From contig JAITBJ010000048.1 in assembly GCA_031283665.1 (NCBI GenBank), positions 1 to 32,151 on the forward strand: a stretch of 32,151 nucleotides of DNA. Reading direction: 5' to 3'. Origin of the DNA: Candidatus Opitulatrix cubana. Lineage in GTDB: Bacteria; Actinomycetota; Actinomycetes; Actinomycetales; Bifidobacteriaceae. Of the stretch, positions 4,526 through 31,108 are shown one piece after another (the stretch's first letter is position 1; the number at the start of each line of letters is the position of its first letter). Below the pieces are notes generated by a model. It was not told the origin of the DNA. It ran no database searches and saw only the letters and a program-made list of their open reading frames with translations. The translations under genes and the position numbers were made by a program.

Positions 4526-7129
4526 ATGGTTGCAGAAGTTGAAAAAAAAGTTGACTTGGCGCTAAAAGCCCTTGATGAGTTTTACAAATTAGATCAAGAA
4601 AAAATAGATTATATAGTAAGTAAAATGTCAGTGGCAGGCTTGAATGCCCATCTAACATTAGCAAAAGAGGCTGTGGAAGAGACAAAAAGAGGCAGAATTG
4701 AAGATAAAGCAGTAAAAAACATTTTTGCTTGCGAGCATGTGACCCATTATTTGAAAAAGCAAAAAACAGTTGGCATTATTTCAGAAGACCCAATTTCTGG
4801 AATTATTGAAATTGCAGATCCTGTGGGAGTGATAGCAGGAGTGACGCCTGTTACAAATCCTACATCTACAACTATTTTTAAATCACTTTTAGCAATCAAA
4901 ACGCGTAATCCAATTATTTTCGGTTTCCACCCAAGTGCACAAAAATGCTCTGTGTCAGCTGCAAAAATTATGTTAGAAGCGGCTCGAAAAGCTGGTGCGC
5001 CGAAAAACTGCATTCAGTGGATAGAAAAGCCATCTATAGAAGCTACAAATGCGCTGATGAATAATGATGGTGTGGCTACAATTTTGGCAACAGGCGGAAA
5101 CGCTATGGTAAAAGCTGCATATTCATGCGGCAAGCCAGCACTAGGCGTGGGAGCAGGAAATGTGCCTGCATATGTAGAAAAGTCTGCTGATTTAGATAAA
5201 GCTGCTAATGATATTATCGTGTCTAAAAACTTTGATTATGGTATGATATGCGCTTCAGAGCAGGCTGTGATAGTTGATAAAAGCATTTATACTTCATTTC
5301 TTGGAAAGCTCAAAAAGCTCAATGCTTATGTTTGCACTCCGCAAGAGAAAGCAAAATTAGAAGAGTTTATATTCGGTGTGAAAGCTTATTCAAAAAATTG
5401 CTCACTCAAGTGTTTGAATCCTGATATAGTCGGTCAATCTCCACAATGGATTGCTAAAAATGCAGGATTTAGCGTTCCAGAATCCACATCTGTGATTTTA
5501 GCAGAGGTAAAAGAGGTAGGATGCAAAGAGCCGCTATCTGCAGAAAAGCTCTCTCCTGTGTTAGCAGTTTTGAAAGCTAATACTACTGCGCATGCGTTTG
5601 ATTTAGCAGAGGCGATGCTTGAAAACGGTGGTTTAGGTCATTCAGCTTGTATACATTCCACAGATAAAGAAATTATTAAAAAATACGGTATGAAAATGAA
5701 AGCATGCAGGATTTTGGAAAACTCTCCTACATCTTTAGGCGGTATAGGAGATGTTTATAACGCCATTATTCCATCATTGACTCTTGGATGCGGATCATAC
5801 GGAAAAAATTCAGTATCAAATAATGTGCAGGCAATAAACTTAGTAAATGTGAAAAGAATAGGACGGAGAAATAATAATATGCAATGGTTTAAGATTCCAC
5901 CAAAAATATATATAGAGCCAAACTCAATTCAGTATCTTCGTGATATGCAAGGTGTTCAAAAAGTAGCTATTGTCACAGATAAAGTGATGAGCGATCTTGG
6001 AATGACGCAAAAGGTTATAGATGAACTAGCTGCAAGAGGGGATGCTATTCAAACAAGAGTTTTAGATTTTGTGGAGCCGGAGCCATCTATTGAAACAGTG
6101 CAAAAAGGTGCTGAAATTATGAGAGGATTTTCGCCTGATACTATTATTGCATTAGGGGGCGGTTCACCAATGGATGCTGCTAAAGTGATGTGGCTTTTAT
6201 ACGAAAATCCGGATATTACTTTTGCAGATATTCGTGAAAAGTTTTTCGATATTAGAAAAAGAGCTTTCACACTTCCTAATTTAGGGCGTCTTGCTAAATT
6301 AGTTTGCATTCCTACATCATCTGGAACTGGTTCAGAGGTTACGCCTTTTTCGGTGATTACAGATCATAAAACAGGCTATAAATATCCGCTAGCAGATTAT
6401 TGCTTGACACCAAGCGTGGCAATAGTGGACCCTGTGCTAGCTATGACTCAGCCAAAATCGCTTGCATGTGATAGCGGCTTTGATGCTCTGACTCATGCTA
6501 TTGAAGCTTATGTTTCCACATATGCTAATGATTTTACAGATGGATTAGCTTTGCATGCTATTCGCCTAATATGGGATAATTTAGAGGAATCTGTAAATAA
6601 GGGAGCTGACGCACCTAAAGCACGAGAAAAAATGCATAATGCTGCCACTCTTGCTGGTATGGCATTTGGTTCTGCGTTTTTAGGATTGTGTCATGGAATG
6701 GCTCATACTATTGGCGCCACATTCCATATTCCGCACGGGAGAACAAACTCTATTTTATTGCCTAATGTGATAAGATATAACGCATCTAGTGATGTGAAAC
6801 CAACTTCATGGCCTAAATATGAAAAATATAATGCTGCTGAGCGCTATCAAGATATTGCAAAGCTGCTAAATTTGAAAGCATCTACACCAGTTCAAGGTTC
6901 TGAATCTTTAGCAAAAGCTGTGGAGGATTTGAGAGGCAGATTAGGAATGAGTGCATCGCTAAAAGAAGCGGGCGTGAAAAAAGCTGATTTAGATAAGTCA
7001 TTAGACGCTATTGCTATGAGAGCTTATGAGGACCAATGCACTCCTGCAAATCCTAGAGTTCCTATTTTAGAAGATATAAAAGCTTTAGCATTGAAGTGCT
7101 ATGACGGAGATTCGTGGAAAATTAAATAA
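4526..7129 (+). CDS. adhE: Bifunctional aldehyde-alcohol dehydrogenase AdhE
   Basis: 867 aa; N-terminal ALDH domain (GVGAGNVPAYVEKSAD, ICASEQ) and C-terminal Fe-ADH domain (ALGGGSPMDAAKVMWLLYE, CHGMAHTIGATFHIPHGRTN). Confidence 0.95.
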   Translation: MVAEVEKKVDLALKALDEFYKLDQEKIDYIVSKMSVAGLNAHLTLAKEAVEETKRGRIEDKAVKNIFACEHVTHYLKKQKTVGIISEDPISGIIEIADPVGVIAGVTPVTNPTSTTIFKSLLAIKTRNPIIFGFHPSAQKCSVSAAKIMLEAARKAGAPKNCIQWIEKPSIEATNALMNNDGVATILATGGNAMVKAAYSCGKPALGVGAGNVPAYVEKSADLDKAANDIIVSKNFDYGMICASEQAVIVDKSIYTSFLGKLKKLNAYVCTPQEKAKLEEFIFGVKAYSKNCSLKCLNPDIVGQSPQWIAKNAGFSVPESTSVILAEVKEVGCKEPLSAEKLSPVLAVLKANTTAHAFDLAEAMLENGGLGHSACIHSTDKEIIKKYGMKMKACRILENSPTSLGGIGDVYNAIIPSLTLGCGSYGKNSVSNNVQAINLVNVKRIGRRNNNMQWFKIPPKIYIEPNSIQYLRDMQGVQKVAIVTDKVMSDLGMTQKVIDELAARGDAIQTRVLDFVEPEPSIETVQKGAEIMRGFSPDTIIALGGGSPMDAAKVMWLLYENPDITFADIREKFFDIRKRAFTLPNLGRLAKLVCIPTSSGTGSEVTPFSVITDHKTGYKYPLADYCLTPSVAIVDPVLAMTQPKSLACDSGFDALTHAIEAYVSTYANDFTDGLALHAIRLIWDNLEESVNKGADAPKAREKMHNAATLAGMAFGSAFLGLCHGMAHTIGATFHIPHGRTNSILLPNVIRYNASSDVKPTSWPKYEKYNAAERYQDIAKLLNLKASTPVQGSESLAKAVEDLRGRLGMSASLKEAGVKKADLDKSLDAIAMRAYEDQCTPANPRVPILEDIKALALKCYDGDSWKIK

Positions 7130-7163: not shown

Positions 7164-8978
7164 ATGTTTAAAGGTTCAGCGTTCAAGGTTTTATTAACCT
7201 CATTTTTGATTATAACATTAACAGGTTTTGGTATTATTGTAAATAATACTGTATCAAACAGTATTGCATCTACATATAGTGCCGAATCTATACATAGTGC
7301 TGAGTTTACAGCAAATGTTGTAAAAGTGGCACGAGTCGACAATTTAGTAGGTTATTCAACAGGTGGCATAACCTGGGAATATAGTAATGCAAAAAATGCA
7401 GAACATGAAAATACACTACTTGAATATAGGGTTTTGAAAAATGATAAATGGAGCAACTGGGAAAGTGTGGAAGAAGAAAAATCTTTATCAGGTAAAAAAG
7501 GTGCTAGTGAGTTTATTGTATTTGGAAATGTAAAGTCTATAGAAGCACGAATTGGATCAGAGTCAGAAATAAAAGATTTTAAAATAAATGCAACTAATGC
7601 AGATGAGCCAAGTGCTCTTGCTACTGATAGGCTAACAAATGGAGCCAGCGCAAATGGAGACAGCGCAAATGGAGAAAGCACAGAAGATGCTGAAGCAAGC
7701 AGCTCTAATAGTTTGCGTTCAGCACCGCTCACAAGCAGCACATCTCAAACTGTGAAAGCAGGCGCTAGAGAGCCAGCAATTTGTGATAGAGCTTGCTGGG
7801 GCGCTAATGAAAGCTGGATGAGGTGGAATCCTCAGATTATAGAGTATAGGGGTGCTGTAATACATCACACTGCAGGGAGCAACGATTATACAAAAAGCGA
7901 ATCAGCAGGAATAGTCAGGTCTATATATTCTTATCATGCAAACAATCTTGGTTGGGGAGATATAGGATACAATTTTTTAGTAGATAAATATGGTCAAATT
8001 TTTGAGGGCAGATGGTTAAGCAGATATCATCAAGTTCAAGGAGCACATGCTTATGGTGCTAATGAATACACTTTTGGAGTTTCAGCATTAGGAAACTATG
8101 AAACAGCCCAGCCCACTGCCGCTTTATTAGATGCTTTTGCATCTATTATTAGCTGGAAGTTTAGCGTTTATGATATAGACCCTAGAGGTTATGCAAATAT
8201 AGGAACAGAGTCTCAAGGTGTGAAATGGCTACCAACTATTTTAGGTCATAGAGATGTGGGTGCTACAGCTTGCCCTGGAAAAAACTTGTATGCTAAATTG
8301 ACTGATCTAAAGCTGCTTATTCAATCAGATTATGGAGTAGGGGGTGCTATAGGCAATAAATGGATGGCATTAGGAGCTGCAGGCGGGAGAATGGGATTTC
8401 CAACTTCTGAAGAGATTCCTGATGGTAATGGTCAAGCACAAACTTTCCAAGGCGGAAATATATATTGGAAAAAATCAACAGGTGATACACATCCTACATG
8501 GGGAGCAATTAAATCAAAATACAATTCCATGACTGCTAGATATGGTGTTTTAGGCTATCCAACTAGCGATGAACTGAATTTGGCAAAAGGTGCAGCACAA
8601 ACTTTTGATGGCGGAAACATTTACTGGAATAAATCTACAAAAAAAACGTTTTCAGTAATAGGGCTTATAAAAAAAGCGTATAGCGCTAAAAACGGTGCAA
8701 GCGGACCTGCTGGATTTCCTAAATCTGATGAGATGGCGGGCTCTAAAGGACTGGGTCAAATTTTTGATAATGGAAAAATCTTTTTGCAAGACGGGAGTTC
8801 AAAAGCATATTGGGCGCATGATGCGATAGGAAACTTATATGATGCATTAGGCTCTCGAGGAGGAAAACTTGGTTATCCAATCACTGATGAAATAAAAACA
8901 TCATCATACACTTATCAAAAATTTGAGAATGGTGAAATCAGATGGACGCAGGCTCGCGACGCATGGGTAGTTTATTAG
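7164..8978 (+). CDS. Secreted peptidoglycan recognition protein/N-acetylmuramoyl-L-alanine amidase with C-terminal LGFP repeats
   Basis: Signal-like N-terminus; PGRP core AVIHHTAGSNDYT...HANNLGWGDIGYNFLVDKYGQIFEGR...GHRDVGATACPG; four LGFP-like repeats (GRMGFPTSEE, YGVLGYPTSDE, PAGFPKSDE, GKLGYPITDE). Confidence 0.93.
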   Translation: MFKGSAFKVLLTSFLIITLTGFGIIVNNTVSNSIASTYSAESIHSAEFTANVVKVARVDNLVGYSTGGITWEYSNAKNAEHENTLLEYRVLKNDKWSNWESVEEEKSLSGKKGASEFIVFGNVKSIEARIGSESEIKDFKINATNADEPSALATDRLTNGASANGDSANGESTEDAEASSSNSLRSAPLTSSTSQTVKAGAREPAICDRACWGANESWMRWNPQIIEYRGAVIHHTAGSNDYTKSESAGIVRSIYSYHANNLGWGDIGYNFLVDKYGQIFEGRWLSRYHQVQGAHAYGANEYTFGVSALGNYETAQPTAALLDAFASIISWKFSVYDIDPRGYANIGTESQGVKWLPTILGHRDVGATACPGKNLYAKLTDLKLLIQSDYGVGGAIGNKWMALGAAGGRMGFPTSEEIPDGNGQAQTFQGGNIYWKKSTGDTHPTWGAIKSKYNSMTARYGVLGYPTSDELNLAKGAAQTFDGGNIYWNKSTKKTFSVIGLIKKAYSAKNGASGPAGFPKSDEMAGSKGLGQIFDNGKIFLQDGSSKAYWAHDAIGNLYDALGSRGGKLGYPITDEIKTSSYTYQKFENGEIRWTQARDAWVVY

Positions 8979-22425: not shown

Positions 22426-22475
22426 ATAGATTATTAAAAGAATTATATGCAGTGAAAACTAATGGAAAATTATAG
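22422..22475 (+). CDS. 17-aa mini-ORF MNRLLKELYAVKTNGKL, possibly a translational coupling peptide
   Basis: ATGA overlap with the upstream stop; its 3' end overlaps the start at 22462. Confidence 0.3.
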   Translation: MNRLLKELYAVKTNGKL

Positions 22476-23325
22476 GCATAGATTGAAAAAATCTACACAG
22501 AAACATAGTAGGAGGAAGTTTACACATTATAAAGATTTACGAACTGGTGAAATCTGTAGTGTTAATTATTTGATTGAAACAATCGGGGACAGTAAAAAAG
22601 GTAAAGAATATATATTAGACAATATAGGATGTCCAGATTGTGGCGTAAAGCTTGAATATGTATTGTTTAGATTTAGTGCTAACCCGTTTTTGCGTAGAGG
22701 TAGCCAACAACATTATGAAGATTGCGAATACCGGTCTTTAGACGGTCAATCAAAAAGAAAAAGATTGAATAATAAAGCTAATTCTTGTAAAGAATTTGAT
22801 ATTGCAACTGGAGAAAATTTTTTAAAATCGATTTTGTTTGCTAGAGAGAAAATAAGCGGTAAACTTGATAGCCCCCAGAATGTTACTACGATAGAAAATA
22901 ATGCCTCAGAAATAGAGAATAAGTATGGAGAAAGTAAAAGTAGTTATATAAAACGGAAATTAAATTATATGACAATGGAAAAAATCTATAATGAAGGAAA
23001 TTGTTTTTATGGAGCTGTGACAATAAAGCTTGTTTTGAGCAGAAGAGAGGGTAAGTTTCCATTTCTTATGTTTTTTGATAAAGAGGCAGGTAAGTATATA
23101 TGTGGCTTATTTTTTGCTTCTCAGAATGTGTATAGCCATTTTTATAATATGTATTCTCTTGAATCTGGAAAGGAATATTTTGGAAATATAGCTTTTATTT
23201 CTACAATAGAGGAAAACAGAAAAGGAAATAAAACATATTATAACGCTTATCTTAAGCACTCAAAGAAAGTACTTATAGAAGGTTTAACTTTAGTAGCCAA
23301 TAATAATGAGATCAATTCAGACTGA
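22462..23325 (+). CDS. Zinc-finger protein with CoiA-like N-terminal pattern
   Basis: CPDCGVKLEYVLFRFSANPFLRRGSQQHYEDCEYR (CxxC...H-x3-C), similar to CoiA-like CPxCG...HFxH...C. Confidence 0.5.
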   Translation: MENYRHRLKKSTQKHSRRKFTHYKDLRTGEICSVNYLIETIGDSKKGKEYILDNIGCPDCGVKLEYVLFRFSANPFLRRGSQQHYEDCEYRSLDGQSKRKRLNNKANSCKEFDIATGENFLKSILFAREKISGKLDSPQNVTTIENNASEIENKYGESKSSYIKRKLNYMTMEKIYNEGNCFYGAVTIKLVLSRREGKFPFLMFFDKEAGKYICGLFFASQNVYSHFYNMYSLESGKEYFGNIAFISTIEENRKGNKTYYNAYLKHSKKVLIEGLTLVANNNEINSD

Positions 23326-23365: not shown

Positions 23366-24250
23366 ATGCAAGCAGCGGCAGTTTCTCCTCAAAAAGGCAA
23401 TGATGAGAGAATAGATGTAAAAGAAAATAGGCTGCTGCAGTTAGATAGTGTAGTTTTTGAGACATTGCTAAAAGACAGGACAACAGGCAAAAATATTCTA
23501 TGGGGAACAGACAATTATTTGCATTATGGAAAAGAATATGCACCTGATAAACAGATTTTGAAGGAACTCATTACTGGTAGACATGGTGAAGTAATTCGGC
23601 CAAGAGTGAAAAAGTCTAAGTCAGAACAAAAAAATAGAGTGAAGCAAAAGGCGGAGGTTTTTACTCCAAGTTGGGTTTGCAAATTGCAAAATGATTATAT
23701 AGATGATGCTTGGTTTGGCAAGAAGTCAAAAAGCTTCCCAACTAAGGATGGCAAAACCTGGAGCGACTATATAAAAATGACATGGTTAGAAATAGCGTGC
23801 GGTGAAGCACCATATATTGTTAATAGATATGACGCCACAACCAGCGATACAGTAACACTATTAAAGCGGATAGGCTTTTTAGATATGAAACTTAAGATTA
23901 TTTTTACTGAATGCAAAACGAAAGAAGATTGGATAAAATGGACAAAAATTGCTTATCAAAGTTGTTATGGATTTGAATGGCAGGGTGACAATTTGCTGTT
24001 AGCTCGTGAAAATCTGTTATATACTTTTTCAGATTATTATGAACATAAATTTAGAAACAAACCCGATGTAGAAGTTCTGCGAGAAATTGCAGAGATTATT
24101 TCTTGGAATATATGGCAGATGGACGGTTTGACATATTGCATCCCAAATACAGAAAAAGAAGCTATGTTAATGGATTGGGAAACTAATGAGCCGACAAAGT
24201 TTGCGCAAATAGCGACTGATAGCTACCAGGATTCTCTTTTTGAGGTATAA
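23366..24250 (+). CDS. Restriction-modification subunit M-like: SAM-binding half of an N6-adenine methyltransferase
   Basis: Motif X-like AEVFTPSWVCKLQN; motif I-like WLEIACGEAPYIVNRYD; motif II/III-like AYQSCYGFEWQGDNLLLARENLLYTF; no NPPY motif in this ORF. Confidence 0.8.
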   Translation: MQAAAVSPQKGNDERIDVKENRLLQLDSVVFETLLKDRTTGKNILWGTDNYLHYGKEYAPDKQILKELITGRHGEVIRPRVKKSKSEQKNRVKQKAEVFTPSWVCKLQNDYIDDAWFGKKSKSFPTKDGKTWSDYIKMTWLEIACGEAPYIVNRYDATTSDTVTLLKRIGFLDMKLKIIFTECKTKEDWIKWTKIAYQSCYGFEWQGDNLLLARENLLYTFSDYYEHKFRNKPDVEVLREIAEIISWNIWQMDGLTYCIPNTEKEAMLMDWETNEPTKFAQIATDSYQDSLFEV

Positions 24251-24260
24251 TTAAAGTAAG

Positions 24261-27200
24261 ATGAGTGAAATTCGAATGAGTACTAATACAATAAATAGAA
24301 CTGATACTACAAATTTTGAATTCTTGAAACTTGAACCAGATGACTGGGAAGTGAATAAACGTTTTCAAGAATATTATCGGCGCGCACAATTTATTGAAGG
24401 GCTTTATGTGAAGGATAATTACCAAAACACGATTAAGCAGGCTGAGAAATTTATAATTGATCTATTAAATGATAATACAGCATTAAAGTCAATGGACACT
24501 TATGCGACCGAAGATGAAGTTACGGATGAGAAAACGAAGAGTCTTATTTGGCTAAAAAATATATGGCTATACCTGAAACAAATTGCCATTGAGTGCAAGC
24601 AGACCATAGAAAGTGAATTCACTGAGCCTATTGCAAAAGATTTATATAAACCAAGTGAGAGAAAACTGATATATATTCAGACTGCTGATAATTCCTCAGG
24701 AAATTGGGGAGTTTATTCTGGATATGAGAAAATTGGAGACGCTACTGCTGACCCCAGTAAAAATTCATTGGATTTCCAACCAAATAGCGAATATCTTAGG
24801 AATCAAGCTAAGCGAAATAGAATTAATGATTATATGAAGACTGCAGGAGTGCCTTATAAAATTGATTGGGCTGAACTTGCATATAAATCTGTGGATAAAT
24901 CTTGGTTTCGAGATTATGATGTGTTTAATGTACTTAAGCGGTCGGGATATAAGCGGAGTGAAAAGCTTGACGGCAATGAATGGTGGAAAGTTAACCTTGA
25001 AGATGCTAAAAAAGCCATAGAGGCGGTCAAAGAAAACCGCGAGGTGATCGATGGGCCTAAAATCGACATGGACGAAATTGTGCTGCGTAATGAGCAAAAC
25101 GAAGCTGTTTGGAAAACTATAAAAGTATTCGAAACAAAGAACCGTATGCTCTGGAACGCAAAAATGCGCTTTGGAAAAACTTTGGCTGCTTATCAGCTAA
25201 TCAGAGAAAGCGATTATCAGCGTGTATTGGTTTTAACTCACCGTCCAGTTGTTTCAGATTCTTGGTTTGATGACTTCAATAAACTTAAAATGGACGAAAA
25301 GGGTTATCGATATGGATCACAAAAAGGTGAAAGTATTGAAAGTTTGCTAAAATCTTCTAAAAAATTTGTTTATTTTGCTAGTATGCAAGATTTGCGAGGT
25401 TCTAGTCAGGTGGGAGGAAAGTATGGTGAAAAAAATGAATTTGTTTTTTCTACTGATTGGGATCTTATTGTGTTTGATGAGGCTCATGAAGGCACTCAAA
25501 CTGAGCTAGCTCAAAATGTGGAAAATGCAGTAAAAAACTTCGGTACAAAAATATTGGAGCTATCTGGTACACCTTTTAATTTGATTGAAAATTATGAAGA
25601 AAACCAAGTGTTCACATGGGATTATGTAATGGAACAAGAAGCGAAGCTTCGCTGGAATGTTGAAAAACCCGATGTGCCAAATCCTTATGAAACTTTACCA
25701 AAAGTGAATATGTTTACTTTTGAAATGAAGAATAAAACTAAATACGAAGATACGAGCAAAGCATTTAACTTTCGGGAGTTCTTTAGGCTCAGAGACAATC
25801 AATCTGATACAAATGAGAGAGGCGAAAAATCTTTTGTGCATGAAAATGATGTAAAGAAGTTTTTAGATGAAATTACCAAAGAGTCGGACACAAATTTTCC
25901 GTATTCTACTGATAAGTTTCGAAATGAATTGCGCCATTCATTATGGTTGCTTCCTGGGGTTGCAGAAGCTAAAGTGCTTAAGTCTTTAATGGATAAGCAT
26001 TCAATTTTTGGTAAAGAATATACGGTTATTAACATTGTTGACAATAATGATAGTGAAGATGCAAGTGAGGGCGACTTGGATCGTGTCCGTAGTGCTATTA
26101 CTGATAAACCTTGGGAGACTAAAACCATTACTTTGACTGTTCGAAAGCTAACGGCTGGAGTAAACATCCCAGAGTGGACGGCAGTAATGTTTTTGAATAA
26201 CACCAATTCACCTACTAATTATCTTCAGGCTGCTTTTCGTGCACAAACACCATATTCTAATGAAGTGCAAGGTCAGAAAAAGAACTGCTATATATTTGAT
26301 TTTGCACCTGATAGGGCACTAACTGTGGTGACAGAATCAGTGGCATTAAACTCTGGTGTAGGGAAGAGAAATACGCCAGAACAAAAAGAAAAGATGAGCA
26401 AATTGCTAAACTTCCTTCCAATTCTAGGCATGCGAGATAATAAGATGAAGCCTTTCAATGTTCAACAAATGCTAACACAACTGAAAACAGTTTATGCGGA
26501 AAAAGCTGTTCGCTCTGGATTTGATGATGATAGTCTTTATTCTGACGCATTATTAACTATTGATCCAGATGCAGCAGAACTGCTTAAAAAACTTAAGGGG
26601 ATTGTTGGGAAAACTGGTGTTTCAAAAAGAAATAAAGATGTTGATATTAACAATCAGGGATTGACAGATGAAGAGTATGAGCGTGCTGAAAAAGCGAAAA
26701 AGAAACCAACCCGTCAACGCACACCTGAAGAGCAGGAAGCTATAGATAAACAAAATAATGCGAGAAGGGAAAGAAAAAATGCTATATCAATTCTTCGTGG
26801 AATTTCTATTCGTATTCCGCTAATGATTTATGGCATGAAAGTAGATCTGTCTAAAGACATTGATATAGAAACTTTTGTTAAAGAAGCAGATGATGCTTCA
26901 TGGGAAGAGTTTATGCCCACAGGTGTAACAAAAGAAATGTTTAGAAAACAAGCAAAGTATTATGATTCAGAAGTTTTTATTGAAGCAGGAAGGATAATAA
27001 GGGCCCGTGCAAAGTCGTATGACGATTTGCCTTATATTGAAAGAGCTAAACAAATTGCTTTATTAATTGGAACATTTAAAAATCCTGACAAAGAAACTGT
27101 TTTGACGCCGTGGCGTGTAGTAAACATGCAATTGTCTTCTACAATAGGGGGTCTTTCATTTTTTAATGAAGATTTCAGTGAATGCAAAGAAGATGTATCT

Positions 27201-28583
27201 GATTTAAATTGGGTGCGACAAGCTGATACTGATGAAATTTACAAAGATGATAAAACCTTTTTGGAAATAAATTCGAAAACAGGACTTTATCCTTTATATG
27301 TTACAACTAGTTTATTATATCACTTTATTCAACGAAATAAAAGAGGAACTAATTTTGATATTCAAAATGAAAAAGTATCAGAAATAATCAAGAATCAAAT
27401 TTACGTAATTGCAAAAACCCCAATGGCTAAGACAATAACTCAAAGAACTTTAGCCGGTTATAAAAATTGGGATTCAAATATTCAGTACTTCCCTGAAATT
27501 ACAAAAAAATTGAAAAATGATATTTTGGCTGTGAAAGAAGATGTTTTGAAAAGGTTTAACAAGGGAGAAAATATGAGATTTGATGTAGTAGTAGGTAATC
27601 CGCCGTATCACGAGCAAAAGGGAGGCACCAAAAATGCAGATATTTGGCAATATTTTGTTTTTTGTGCGAATAAAATGGGAAGATATGTTTCTATGGTGCA
27701 TCCAGCAAGATGGATTATTCCGAAAAAACAAATGGAAAAGATAAAAAATCAAATTATTGATTCTGGACTATATTATTTTGACTATTTTCCTGATGCGAAG
27801 ATCTTGTTTCCAAATACTCTTATTGATGGTGGAATTACAATAACAGCTTATAAAAAGAACTATAAAGAAAAAATAAAGTATTCACAAAATGGTAATTATA
27901 AAGGAATTTTTAATCCACATGAAAAGTTTTTTATAAATTTGTTCGAAGAGGAAATTTTTGGCAAATTAAATCCAGGTATTTTTGGTGGAGGATCTATGAA
28001 TGATAGAGTTTTAGGTAATTTGGGGAGTCTTGGTGGAAGTGAATTCGGTTATAGTAAAACGAAGCACATTTTATATTTAAAGAGCAGCTCCAAAGAATTA
28101 GAATCACCTGTTAGAATATGGGCAAATAATGATTATGGCAAGGGAAGTCGTTTTAATTGGTATTATATTGAGGAGTCAATATTGAATAACTCTCCTAAAG
28201 CATTATTTGAAAATAGAAAAGTTATGCTTGATAAAAAAGGACATGCTATTACGGAGAGAAAGGCAAATATAATAAATAATGAACCAAAAATTGTTGATAA
28301 AAAAGTAATTGCTAGCGGAGATGTTTTTTTTATAATTCCAGAAAATGATAATGATTATGAGTTGAAATTAATAAGTAGTATGTTTAAGACAAAAACTGTA
28401 CGATTTTTGATGTCAATAACCCAAAAGGATCTATATGTTAGAGGCTTAGAAAATATACCGGATTATACATATTTTATAGATATGTTGAATGGAAAGCTGT
28501 TTACAGATGAGTGGTTCTATGAAAAGTTTGATTTTAGTCTGGAATTAATAAATCACATAGAAACTGTTATATCTGCGAAATAA
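24261..28583 (+). CDS. Fused SF2 helicase and Eco57I-like methyltransferase (NPPY half), with possible N-terminal GIY-YIG-like domain
   Basis: MRFGKTLAAYQLI Walker A-like; LTHRPVVSDSW; DLIVFDEAHEG (DEAH); LELSGTPFN; LQAAFRAQTP motif VI-like; C-terminal MRFDVVVGNPPYHEQ. Confidence 0.87.
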   Translation: MSEIRMSTNTINRTDTTNFEFLKLEPDDWEVNKRFQEYYRRAQFIEGLYVKDNYQNTIKQAEKFIIDLLNDNTALKSMDTYATEDEVTDEKTKSLIWLKNIWLYLKQIAIECKQTIESEFTEPIAKDLYKPSERKLIYIQTADNSSGNWGVYSGYEKIGDATADPSKNSLDFQPNSEYLRNQAKRNRINDYMKTAGVPYKIDWAELAYKSVDKSWFRDYDVFNVLKRSGYKRSEKLDGNEWWKVNLEDAKKAIEAVKENREVIDGPKIDMDEIVLRNEQNEAVWKTIKVFETKNRMLWNAKMRFGKTLAAYQLIRESDYQRVLVLTHRPVVSDSWFDDFNKLKMDEKGYRYGSQKGESIESLLKSSKKFVYFASMQDLRGSSQVGGKYGEKNEFVFSTDWDLIVFDEAHEGTQTELAQNVENAVKNFGTKILELSGTPFNLIENYEENQVFTWDYVMEQEAKLRWNVEKPDVPNPYETLPKVNMFTFEMKNKTKYEDTSKAFNFREFFRLRDNQSDTNERGEKSFVHENDVKKFLDEITKESDTNFPYSTDKFRNELRHSLWLLPGVAEAKVLKSLMDKHSIFGKEYTVINIVDNNDSEDASEGDLDRVRSAITDKPWETKTITLTVRKLTAGVNIPEWTAVMFLNNTNSPTNYLQAAFRAQTPYSNEVQGQKKNCYIFDFAPDRALTVVTESVALNSGVGKRNTPEQKEKMSKLLNFLPILGMRDNKMKPFNVQQMLTQLKTVYAEKAVRSGFDDDSLYSDALLTIDPDAAELLKKLKGIVGKTGVSKRNKDVDINNQGLTDEEYERAEKAKKKPTRQRTPEEQEAIDKQNNARRERKNAISILRGISIRIPLMIYGMKVDLSKDIDIETFVKEADDASWEEFMPTGVTKEMFRKQAKYYDSEVFIEAGRIIRARAKSYDDLPYIERAKQIALLIGTFKNPDKETVLTPWRVVNMQLSSTIGGLSFFNEDFSECKEDVSDLNWVRQADTDEIYKDDKTFLEINSKTGLYPLYVTTSLLYHFIQRNKRGTNFDIQNEKVSEIIKNQIYVIAKTPMAKTITQRTLAGYKNWDSNIQYFPEITKKLKNDILAVKEDVLKRFNKGENMRFDVVVGNPPYHEQKGGTKNADIWQYFVFCANKMGRYVSMVHPARWIIPKKQMEKIKNQIIDSGLYYFDYFPDAKILFPNTLIDGGITITAYKKNYKEKIKYSQNGNYKGIFNPHEKFFINLFEEEIFGKLNPGIFGGGSMNDRVLGNLGSLGGSEFGYSKTKHILYLKSSSKELESPVRIWANNDYGKGSRFNWYYIEESILNNSPKALFENRKVMLDKKGHAITERKANIINNEPKIVDKKVIASGDVFFIIPENDNDYELKLISSMFKTKTVRFLMSITQKDLYVRGLENIPDYTYFIDMLNGKLFTDEWFYEKFDFSLELINHIETVISAK
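27563..27575 (+). promoter_or_regulatory. Internal in-frame Shine-Dalgarno plus ATG at the start of the NPPY methyltransferase segment
   Basis: aaGGGAGaaaatATGAGATTTGATG; ATG at 27573 is in frame with 24261 (codon 1105). Confidence 0.45.
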
Positions 28584-28933: not shown

Positions 28934-31108
28934 ATGATAATAGAAAAAGTACAAAATTTAAATAAAAAGTCTTGGAACGGGTATACTAATCCTGAGGATT
29001 TGATTTTTAAGCAAAGAAATATAATTTTTGGTTATAATGGTAGTGGCAAATCTTCATTAGCTGATGGCATCGTAGATGAGTTCCGTAGAAATAATGTAGT
29101 AAGAGATGATAACTTTAGATATTTTAATAAGGACTATCTTGGAAAAATATTGTTAAGCGAGAATAAAAATCTTAGAGGAGTAAAGGCGAGCTTTGGCAAG
29201 AAAAATGTTGATATCGAGAATGAAATTAATGAAAATAAAAAGAGACTTGATAAGACTAATTACCAAATAGAGGGATTGGAGGAGAAACTCAAAAAAATTG
29301 AAAATGATATAAACACTAGAATAAAAGAGATTTTTATGGAAAAAAAGGGAAATATTAATCTTAAACAAAAGTCTGGAAGTTTTAAAGAAAAAATTGAATT
29401 ATATAAAAAAGACTATAATTCTGTAAAAGAAAGTTTGTCAGATGTAGAACTGAAAAAAGCAAGTTCTGATACTGATTATGAAAAGTTATTGAATCAGATA
29501 GAAAGTCTAGACATAGGAACTTTAGAGTCATTTAACTTATCAAAGTCTGAAGAAATAAAAAATATTTGTGAATTTATAGATTATAGCTTGGAAAATGTAC
29601 CCGAACAGGATTTACTTTTATGGTTAAATAAAGGTCTTCAATTCCATACGAATACAAAGAATTGTGAATTTTGTGATGGCAAATTATATATTGAAAAGAT
29701 AAGGTTTAAGATAAAAAAATATAATGAAAATAAAAAGGCAAAAGATGAAGCAACAATAAGAGAATTTTATAATAATTTGTCGACTTTTTGTAAATCTGTT
29801 TATGAAATATATAATAAAAAGGATTTAGTTAAATCTTTTATAGATATAGACGAACAGTTTTATTTAGATCTTGAAAACTACAGTAAGGAAATATTAGGAG
29901 TCCAGCAAATACTAAAAGATAAATTAGAAAAAATGGAAAAGTTAATAAATTTTGATATTCTTCATTTTTCTAAAAGTGTATCTTGTATCGTTGAAATATA
30001 TGAGATGATAAAACTAGGAAAAGAAAAGTTGATTGATGTTTACAAGGAGCGATTTATTAATATTAATCAAATTATAAGAGGTGCAATTGGATATGGAGTT
30101 ATTAATGATTCTTTTATTATAAAAAATACTAATGATTATAATAATATTGAGAATGATCAAATAAAACTAGAAAAAGAAAGAAAGTCAGTTCTACAAAATA
30201 TAAAAACTCTTGTAGATGAAAAATCATCGGTTAAGGATTTTTGCGATTTTTTAAATGATGTTCTACATGGATTAAATAGCAATTTAAAGCTTAAAATACA
30301 AGGTAATGATTATGTAATAAAGACAAGGGATGACACAAATTTAGCTATTAAAGATATAAGCGAAGGTGAGAAGAATATGTTAATGCTGTTGTTCTTTTAT
30401 TTTGAATTATTTAATGATAATAAACAAAAAGATTTTAAAAAAGAAATTAAGTTAATTATAATAGATGACCCAATTTCTTCATTAGATAATCACAATTCTT
30501 TTTATGTTTTAGATTTGATTAGAAAAATTTTAAATCTAAAAGAAAATTTTCAGCTATTTATTTTTACACATTCTTGGGATAATTTTTGTAATCTTACGTT
30601 TGGTAAAAAAGGCGCCGAAAACAATTTTAGATTTTTTGAAGTATACAAAAATTTTGATGGTGAAAGTCAATTAAAAACCCAAAAATGTTTGACGAAACCA
30701 TATAAATATAACTTTATAAAGTTATTAGAATTTTCGGAAAAGAAGGATGCTAGTCAGTTTACAGATTGTGAAATATATCATTATCCAAATTTATTAAGGA
30801 TTGTTTTAGAGGAATATATAAGTTTTATTCTTCAAGACGAAAGCGTTCAACCAAATAGTAATGTTTCAAATAAAAATAAAATTATAAAAGTATTATATAA
30901 TGAAGAACCAGATAAGGTAGGAGATGATGAAAGAATAAGATTAGAGTCCTTTCTTAGCGTTTGTAATATTTTATCACATGAATTTTCACGCAGCCCAGAC
31001 GATATTCTAAATGCTGCTAAATTCTTTTTAGAAAGAATAAAAAAAACTAATAAACAACATTATGACAGTATAGATGGATCAAGATGGCAAACTAAAGAGC
31101 AGATATGA
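28934..31108 (+). CDS. AAA_13/RloC-PrrC-like ATPase with coiled coil and CxxC zinc-hook motif
   Basis: IIFGYNGSGKSSLADGI Walker A; FRYFNKDYLGKILLSENKNLRGVKASFGKKN; NCEFCDGKL at coiled-coil apex; ISEGEKNMLMLLFFYFELF signature; LIIIDDPISSLDNHN Walker B; FIFTHSWDNFC. Confidence 0.82.
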   Translation: MIIEKVQNLNKKSWNGYTNPEDLIFKQRNIIFGYNGSGKSSLADGIVDEFRRNNVVRDDNFRYFNKDYLGKILLSENKNLRGVKASFGKKNVDIENEINENKKRLDKTNYQIEGLEEKLKKIENDINTRIKEIFMEKKGNINLKQKSGSFKEKIELYKKDYNSVKESLSDVELKKASSDTDYEKLLNQIESLDIGTLESFNLSKSEEIKNICEFIDYSLENVPEQDLLLWLNKGLQFHTNTKNCEFCDGKLYIEKIRFKIKKYNENKKAKDEATIREFYNNLSTFCKSVYEIYNKKDLVKSFIDIDEQFYLDLENYSKEILGVQQILKDKLEKMEKLINFDILHFSKSVSCIVEIYEMIKLGKEKLIDVYKERFININQIIRGAIGYGVINDSFIIKNTNDYNNIENDQIKLEKERKSVLQNIKTLVDEKSSVKDFCDFLNDVLHGLNSNLKLKIQGNDYVIKTRDDTNLAIKDISEGEKNMLMLLFFYFELFNDNKQKDFKKEIKLIIIDDPISSLDNHNSFYVLDLIRKILNLKENFQLFIFTHSWDNFCNLTFGKKGAENNFRFFEVYKNFDGESQLKTQKCLTKPYKYNFIKLLEFSEKKDASQFTDCEIYHYPNLLRIVLEEYISFILQDESVQPNSNVSNKNKIIKVLYNEEPDKVGDDERIRLESFLSVCNILSHEFSRSPDDILNAAKFFLERIKKTNKQHYDSIDGSRWQTKEQI

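Follow-up and report, generated by a model that had tools for sequence, protein, structure and literature searches.

A putative N6-adenine DNA methyltransferase split between motifs III and IV, with two candidate N-terminal halves for one catalytic half

Two adjacent genes in the window (the whole 32,151-nucleotide stretch of Candidatus Opitulatrix cubana DNA analysed here) probably constitute a two-gene system of restriction–modification type, in which an N6-adenine methyltransferase is distributed over two polypeptides, the cut falling between motifs III and IV. According to this reading, to which we assign a probability of roughly 0.6, the product of the small gene (alpha) would methylate DNA together with the catalytic and target-recognition half of the large protein (gamma), and a second N-terminal half located on the large protein (beta) would be a pseudo-half. 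The pair is one member of an extensive family of enzymes for DNA methylation and defence, found in bacteria and phages and mis-annotated. The features of the two genes are listed below. The counts given for alpha come from a set of 113 sequences that were picked by motif I, so that the counts are independent for motifs X, II and III only.

23366..24250, forward strand: alpha gene, 294 amino acids; canonical SAM-binding N-terminal half (motifs X, I, II and III) without a catalytic motif
23657..23677, forward strand: alpha motif X, VFTPSWV, at residue 98; proline invariant in the 113 alpha sequences
23786..23818, forward strand: alpha motif I, LEIACGEAPYI, at residue 141; invariant alignment columns
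23966..23977, forward strand: alpha motif II, YGFE, at residue 201, the acid being E204; an E or D stands here in all 113 alpha sequences
24107..24127, forward strand: alpha motif III, NIWQMDG, at residue 248
24261..28583, forward strand: large gene, 1440 amino acids (GIY-YIG-like region, SF2 helicase, beta, gamma), starting 10 bp downstream of alpha on the same strand
24669..25025, forward strand: GIY-YIG/T5orf172-like region, residues ~130–255 (LIY..KIG..R..E), placed by alignment with relatives
25077..26246, forward strand: SF2 helicase (AKMRFGKT, DEAH, QAAFRAQ); Pfam ResIII match at residues 273–439, E 1.4e-16
26901..27578, forward strand: beta, residues ~881–1106; N-terminal half with a lysine-substituted motif I
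27099..27110, forward strand: beta motif X, VLTP (VLTPW, residues 947–951); T-P invariant in 36 relatives
27258..27299, forward strand: beta motif I-like FLEINSKTGLYPLY, residues 1000–1013, including Lys1006; K and G unchanged across 36/36 rows
27573..28583, forward strand: gamma, the C-terminal ~330 residues of the large protein; NPPY half and target-recognition region
27597..27608, forward strand: motif IV, NPPY, residues 1113–1116; invariant, and also the boundary of cassette exchange

The original prediction that the small protein possesses motifs X, I, II and III but no (D/N)PPY was borne out, coordinates included, by a check of the open reading frame and its motifs: no (D/N)PPY occurs anywhere in the 294 residues. 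Alpha has no match in Pfam, NCBIfam or PHROGs, and a search against the sequences of solved structures gave nothing useful. A broken gene or an assembly artefact was considered as the source of the small protein and rejected, as dozens of genomes from several phyla encode a free-standing alpha beside a large protein.

The SF2 helicase expected in the large protein, with further sequence ahead of it, is likewise present, the ResIII match being preceded by the GIY-YIG-like region. A Pfam search with the window's large protein gave no GIY-YIG match of its own, and it was the helicase protein of a relative (L097) that produced a T5orf172 match (E 1.4e-11). Where the relatives have VH the window copy has VF, and the nuclease residues have diverged. 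At the other end of the protein, the C-terminus shows a weak match (E 0.0075) to R.HhaI in a search of solved-structure sequences.

The large protein had been thought to lack a motif I half, its methyltransferase segment starting at MRFDVVVGNPPY. This is contradicted by beta, an N-terminal half that precedes that point from residue ~881 and comprises a motif X situated about 170 residues ahead of NPPY and the motif I-like FLEINSKTGLYPLY; the Pfam Eco57I match on the large protein begins already at residue 1045. The original prediction had named a motif I on the large protein as telling against it, and one is indeed present, but in altered form: lysine replaces the first SAM-binding glycine of motif I, and the motif II acid, present in 113/113 alpha sequences (motif II being independent of how that set was picked), is absent from 36/36 beta rows. 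Neither the canonical motif I glycine nor the motif II acid is therefore found in NPPY's own chain. In the 36 aligned relatives, beta's T-P, K and G never vary, just like NPPY, although the lysine is not universal, being threonine (FSTAGLF) in two three-gene loci (L181 and L182). The match between the alpha and beta profiles is weak past motif X, and beta–gamma gave nothing useful against the sequences of solved structures. Judged by its residues, beta would probably not bind SAM in the usual way. Because beta is found beside alpha, gamma has two candidate N-terminal halves, one canonical and one altered.

In the m6A methyltransferase fold the order of strands in the sheet is 3-2-1-4-5-7-6, so that a cut between motifs III and IV leaves two contiguous half-sheets that meet at strands 1 and 4. 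AlphaFold models were made of both combinations. For alpha–gamma, taken from a natural fusion of the two (L077), the model has a pLDDT of 91.1 and a pTM of 0.90 and unites the full motif set (X, I, II, III and IV) in one predicted fold; for beta–gamma (window residues 881–1440) the values are 82.5 and 0.78, beta being packed against NPPY in cis, with strands at the positions of motifs I, II, III and IV as in a full methyltransferase. Among solved structures, CamA, BrxX and M.BseCI are the best matches of both models, covering the greater part of each at a TM of about 0.5, and the recognition regions are for this reason only loosely placed. The alpha–gamma model also matches M.TaqI, and the LlaBIII and LlaGI structures are among the matches of the beta–gamma fold. 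On these models alpha and beta would occupy the same edge of gamma.

The arrangement of the five modules was surveyed with profiles in 80 loci from GTDB genomes together with IMG/VR loci. The commonest layout, which is also that of the window, is alpha followed by GIY-helicase-beta-gamma. Elsewhere alpha and gamma are fused and accompanied by GIY-helicase-beta (L015, L122 and also G306/L183), or alpha, gamma and GIY-helicase-beta are separate genes (L016, L119, L120), or alpha is found with beta-gamma and GIY-helicase (L097, L102) or with GIY, helicase and beta-gamma each encoded separately (L030). Gamma is thus joined to alpha in some loci (L015, L122, L077, L183), to beta in others (the window, L014, L023 and most others, as well as L097, L102 and L030) and free-standing in yet others (L016, L119, L120, L107, L126, L127, L133, L181, L182), where it opens at motif IV itself, as in MKFDVVVGNPPY. 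The alpha–gamma fusion is a single chain of ~660–720 amino acids in L015, L077, L122, L004 and L183. In a second branch of the family a shorter alpha-like protein (LEPACGSGNF, ~210–300 amino acids, no NPPY) stands beside a beta-gamma (FLDPFTKSGVF...NPPY) or adjoins helicase-beta and a free-standing gamma. One genome of the window's own family (G006) shares an identical alpha with an assembly of Candidatus Ancillula (L011 = L035).

Several sets comprise alpha and gamma only. A Clostridia genome (L077) encodes an orphan alpha–gamma fusion with no helicase or beta match within 9 kb, and Fusobacterium phage FNU4 encodes another, with no helicase or beta annotated within 5 kb. Four phages (L107, L126, L127, L133) have separate alpha and gamma genes without a helicase. 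Searches of the whole records of L126 and L133 found no beta; nor was there one in the L127 record, where the sole weak match (E 8.5e-4) falls within alpha. In the L127 record a single alpha is accompanied by two gamma genes, a set that L133 and L126 resemble, both being cut by contig ends. In Tenacibaculum phage PTm1 (L107) a frame-broken remnant of beta (7200–7566) lies directly ahead of an intact gamma, and no helicase was found in the annotated 8.8-kb stretch around it. The original proposal that methylation depends on assembly with the translocase applies only in so far as gamma sits on the translocase chain in the window; the orphan alpha and gamma sets suggest that the motor is not intrinsically needed for methylation.

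Other phage records, of 14–57 kb (L017/L116, L019/L121, L020/L124 and L110), possess alpha but no gamma in the record, and may be fragments, or their alpha may act on a gamma of the host; L017 also encodes, near alpha (6417–7085), another phage methyltransferase-like protein with sequences resembling motif X (DFTPG) and motif I (EMAAGTGGMMI) but no PPY. In very large records of 233–412 kb (L115, L117, L118, L141–L143), alpha is accompanied by a distant giant frame (about 1800–1930 amino acids) that contains gamma and a beta-like motif, GxKxG or SKxG.

The window's order was surveyed in 297 genomes; 17 of them have a strong beta (E below 1e-20), and each of these also carries alpha or an alpha-like protein, which lies in the neighbourhood of beta except in two fragmented assemblies (G173 and G286). 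The window's own assembly is 768 kb in size and 83% complete. A search for counter-examples in the same order turned up one genome with alpha and no beta (G119), on a contig that breaks off within the helicase. The Type IIG organisation, in which a single self-sufficient polypeptide cleaves, methylates and recognises DNA, would not apply here, an alpha-type protein, separate or fused to gamma, being present in 17/17 of these genomes and the large protein lacking the usual residues of a SAM site. Fusion, separation and co-occurrence together suggest that both polypeptides are needed for activity. The idea that the SAM-binding and catalytic halves lie on different polypeptides thus survives in part: the fusions, the predicted fold and the two-part phage sets speak for it, whereas the presence of beta means that the large protein has an N-terminal half of its own.

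The main rival explanation is that beta–gamma is itself the active enzyme, with K-x-G as an atypical motif I, leaving alpha as a pseudo-methyltransferase or as a subunit with an accessory, activating or specificity role. With its halves in cis, a complete CamA-like fold predicted for it, and a motif X and K-x-G as invariant as NPPY, this has some appeal, but we consider it unlikely, at something like one chance in five: the usual SAM contacts are missing from every beta row and the motif II acid is kept in every alpha, alpha–gamma fusions and phages with alpha and gamma only exist without an intact beta, and none of the genomes surveyed in the window's order has a strong beta without an alpha-type partner. 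A plainer split, in which alpha and gamma alone are functional and beta is an evolutionary remnant without function between helicase and NPPY, would account for the fusions and for the phage orphan sets in which beta is lost or broken. It fits poorly with the invariance of the beta motif X and K-x-G in 36 diverse relatives and with the retention of beta in loci whose gamma is no longer on the helicase chain (L015, L016, L119, L120, L122); for these same two reasons we take beta to be under selection in restriction-type loci, and we regard the remnant explanation as improbable. Less probable still is a complex of two modules, alpha:gamma and beta:gamma, with two copies of gamma, one module methylating and one recognising as in dimeric Type III Mod; each N-terminal half is predicted to complete gamma, and loci with alpha–gamma and helicase-beta leave beta without a gamma of its own in cis.

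Under the preferred reading, a split enzyme with beta as pseudo-half, alpha would contribute the SAM-binding half (motif X and strands 1–3 with motifs I–III) and gamma would contribute NPPY, the remainder of the sheet and the target-recognition region, the two together forming the putative m6A-methylating enzyme. Beta would most likely dock gamma to the helicase/nuclease and, when alpha is absent, may complete gamma's fold to give a SAM-free recognition or restriction state. We infer both the restriction activity and the timing with which alpha and beta pair with gamma. A more specific version, that alpha and beta compete for the edge of gamma, alpha:gamma methylating and beta:gamma, its SAM site occupied by a lysine, being a SAM-blind reader wired to the helicase-nuclease, is tentative and, in our estimation, has rather less than an even chance of being correct. 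If true, modification and restriction would correspond to interchangeable ways of completing a single catalytic/recognition half, and a change of gamma at NPPY would re-target both at once. The presence of two N-terminal halves for one catalytic half makes the choice between methylating and cutting directly testable.

Comparison of relatives identifies gamma as a replaceable cassette, most likely for specificity, that is exchanged at the NPPYQ codons. Across 63 loci the identities of helicase and beta correlate (Spearman 0.88), whereas the C-terminal part of gamma follows neither helicase nor beta (Spearman 0.04 and 0.05, respectively). In one pair of loci (L032 and L033) alpha is 99% identical, helicase 98% and beta 99%, but gamma only 33–35%; at the DNA level near-identity stops at the end of NPPYQ and returns ~40 bases ahead of the stop codon. 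Of 157 gene pairs with long matches, 149 show a break before the end: 84 break 13–25 nt after the first base of NPPY, though these derive from 25 loci and share loci, and are thus not independent, another 61 have their break beyond that stretch, and just 4 ahead of the motif. The break moves downstream by up to ~300 nt in pairs whose gammas are more alike. The window gene behaves similarly, its 69% similarity to Enterococcus faecium plasmids stopping at 27613, two bases past the NPPYH codons. No silent gamma cassettes of the kind found in hsdS shufflons were seen beside the loci. The constant chassis would thus comprise alpha, the nuclease-helicase and beta, gamma being swapped to alter specificity. 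Movement of target-recognition domains is known in other types of restriction–modification system (PMC3983042, PMC3077401).

How does this layout compare with known systems? The N6-adenine methyltransferases with a C-terminal target-recognition domain (CamA, BrxX/PglX, M.BseCI and M.TaqI) have the same order of motifs, X-I-II-III-IV and then the recognition domain, but are single chains with one N-terminal half, whereas the enzyme here is divided at the junction of motifs III and IV and has two candidate N-terminal halves. Type ISP enzymes are single polypeptides with an Mrr-like PD-(D/E)XK nuclease and their own SAM site. LlaGI and LlaBIII, which are of this type, resemble the window in having an SF2 helicase, an NPPY methyltransferase and a target-recognition domain on one chain; the window differs in its two genes, GIY-YIG/T5orf172-like N-terminal region, altered SAM site in cis and separate alpha, and its pair has neither the single-polypeptide organisation nor the Mrr nuclease of Type ISP. 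In Bacillus subtilis and relatives, the DnmA-YeeB-YeeC cluster brings together an m6A methyltransferase, an SF2 helicase and a T5orf172/GIY-YIG protein (PMC9973331). These are the same parts as in the window, but as three separate genes with no split described, DnmA being a single MmeI-like protein that is necessary and sufficient for methylation (PMC9973331). Naturally split methyltransferases of two polypeptides are known among the C5 enzymes M.AquI and M.EcoHK31I (PMC3404938), but these make 5-methylcytosine and are divided after motif VIII, or with motif IX alone set apart, and no second pseudo-half, helicase fusion or cassette exchange at the cut has been described for them.

The proteins themselves are already known, but as separate whole enzymes. 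The PADLOC equivalents are MTase_II PDLC03390 for alpha (E 3.8e-91), MTase_II PDLC03375 for free-standing gamma and REase_MTase_IIG PDLC03626 for the large protein, the MTase_II models treating each of alpha and gamma as an entire Type II methyltransferase rather than as a half. A search of the largely open-access literature on split m6A methyltransferases, T5orf172-plus-helicase systems and degenerate SAM halves found no description of the layout and no account of a catalytic half common to two N-terminal halves or exchanged at NPPY. With databases counting each half as a full methyltransferase, assignments of methylomes to genes would be wrong for many gut bacteria, lactic plasmids and phages. 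An enzyme naturally cut at motif IV, whose SAM subunit is shared by exchangeable catalytic/recognition cassettes, would also amount to a ready-made modular tool for methylation.

Upstream of the pair (22462–23325, forward strand) lies a gene for a 287-amino-acid protein with a CxxC zinc-ribbon-like stretch, which gave nothing above cut-off against Pfam, NCBIfam or PADLOC. Directly after the pair (28934–31108, forward strand) comes a gene for a 724-amino-acid AAA_13 ATPase that matches PDC-S06, a candidate defence family in PADLOC, and, weakly, PrrC, and the pair may lie inside a small defence island.
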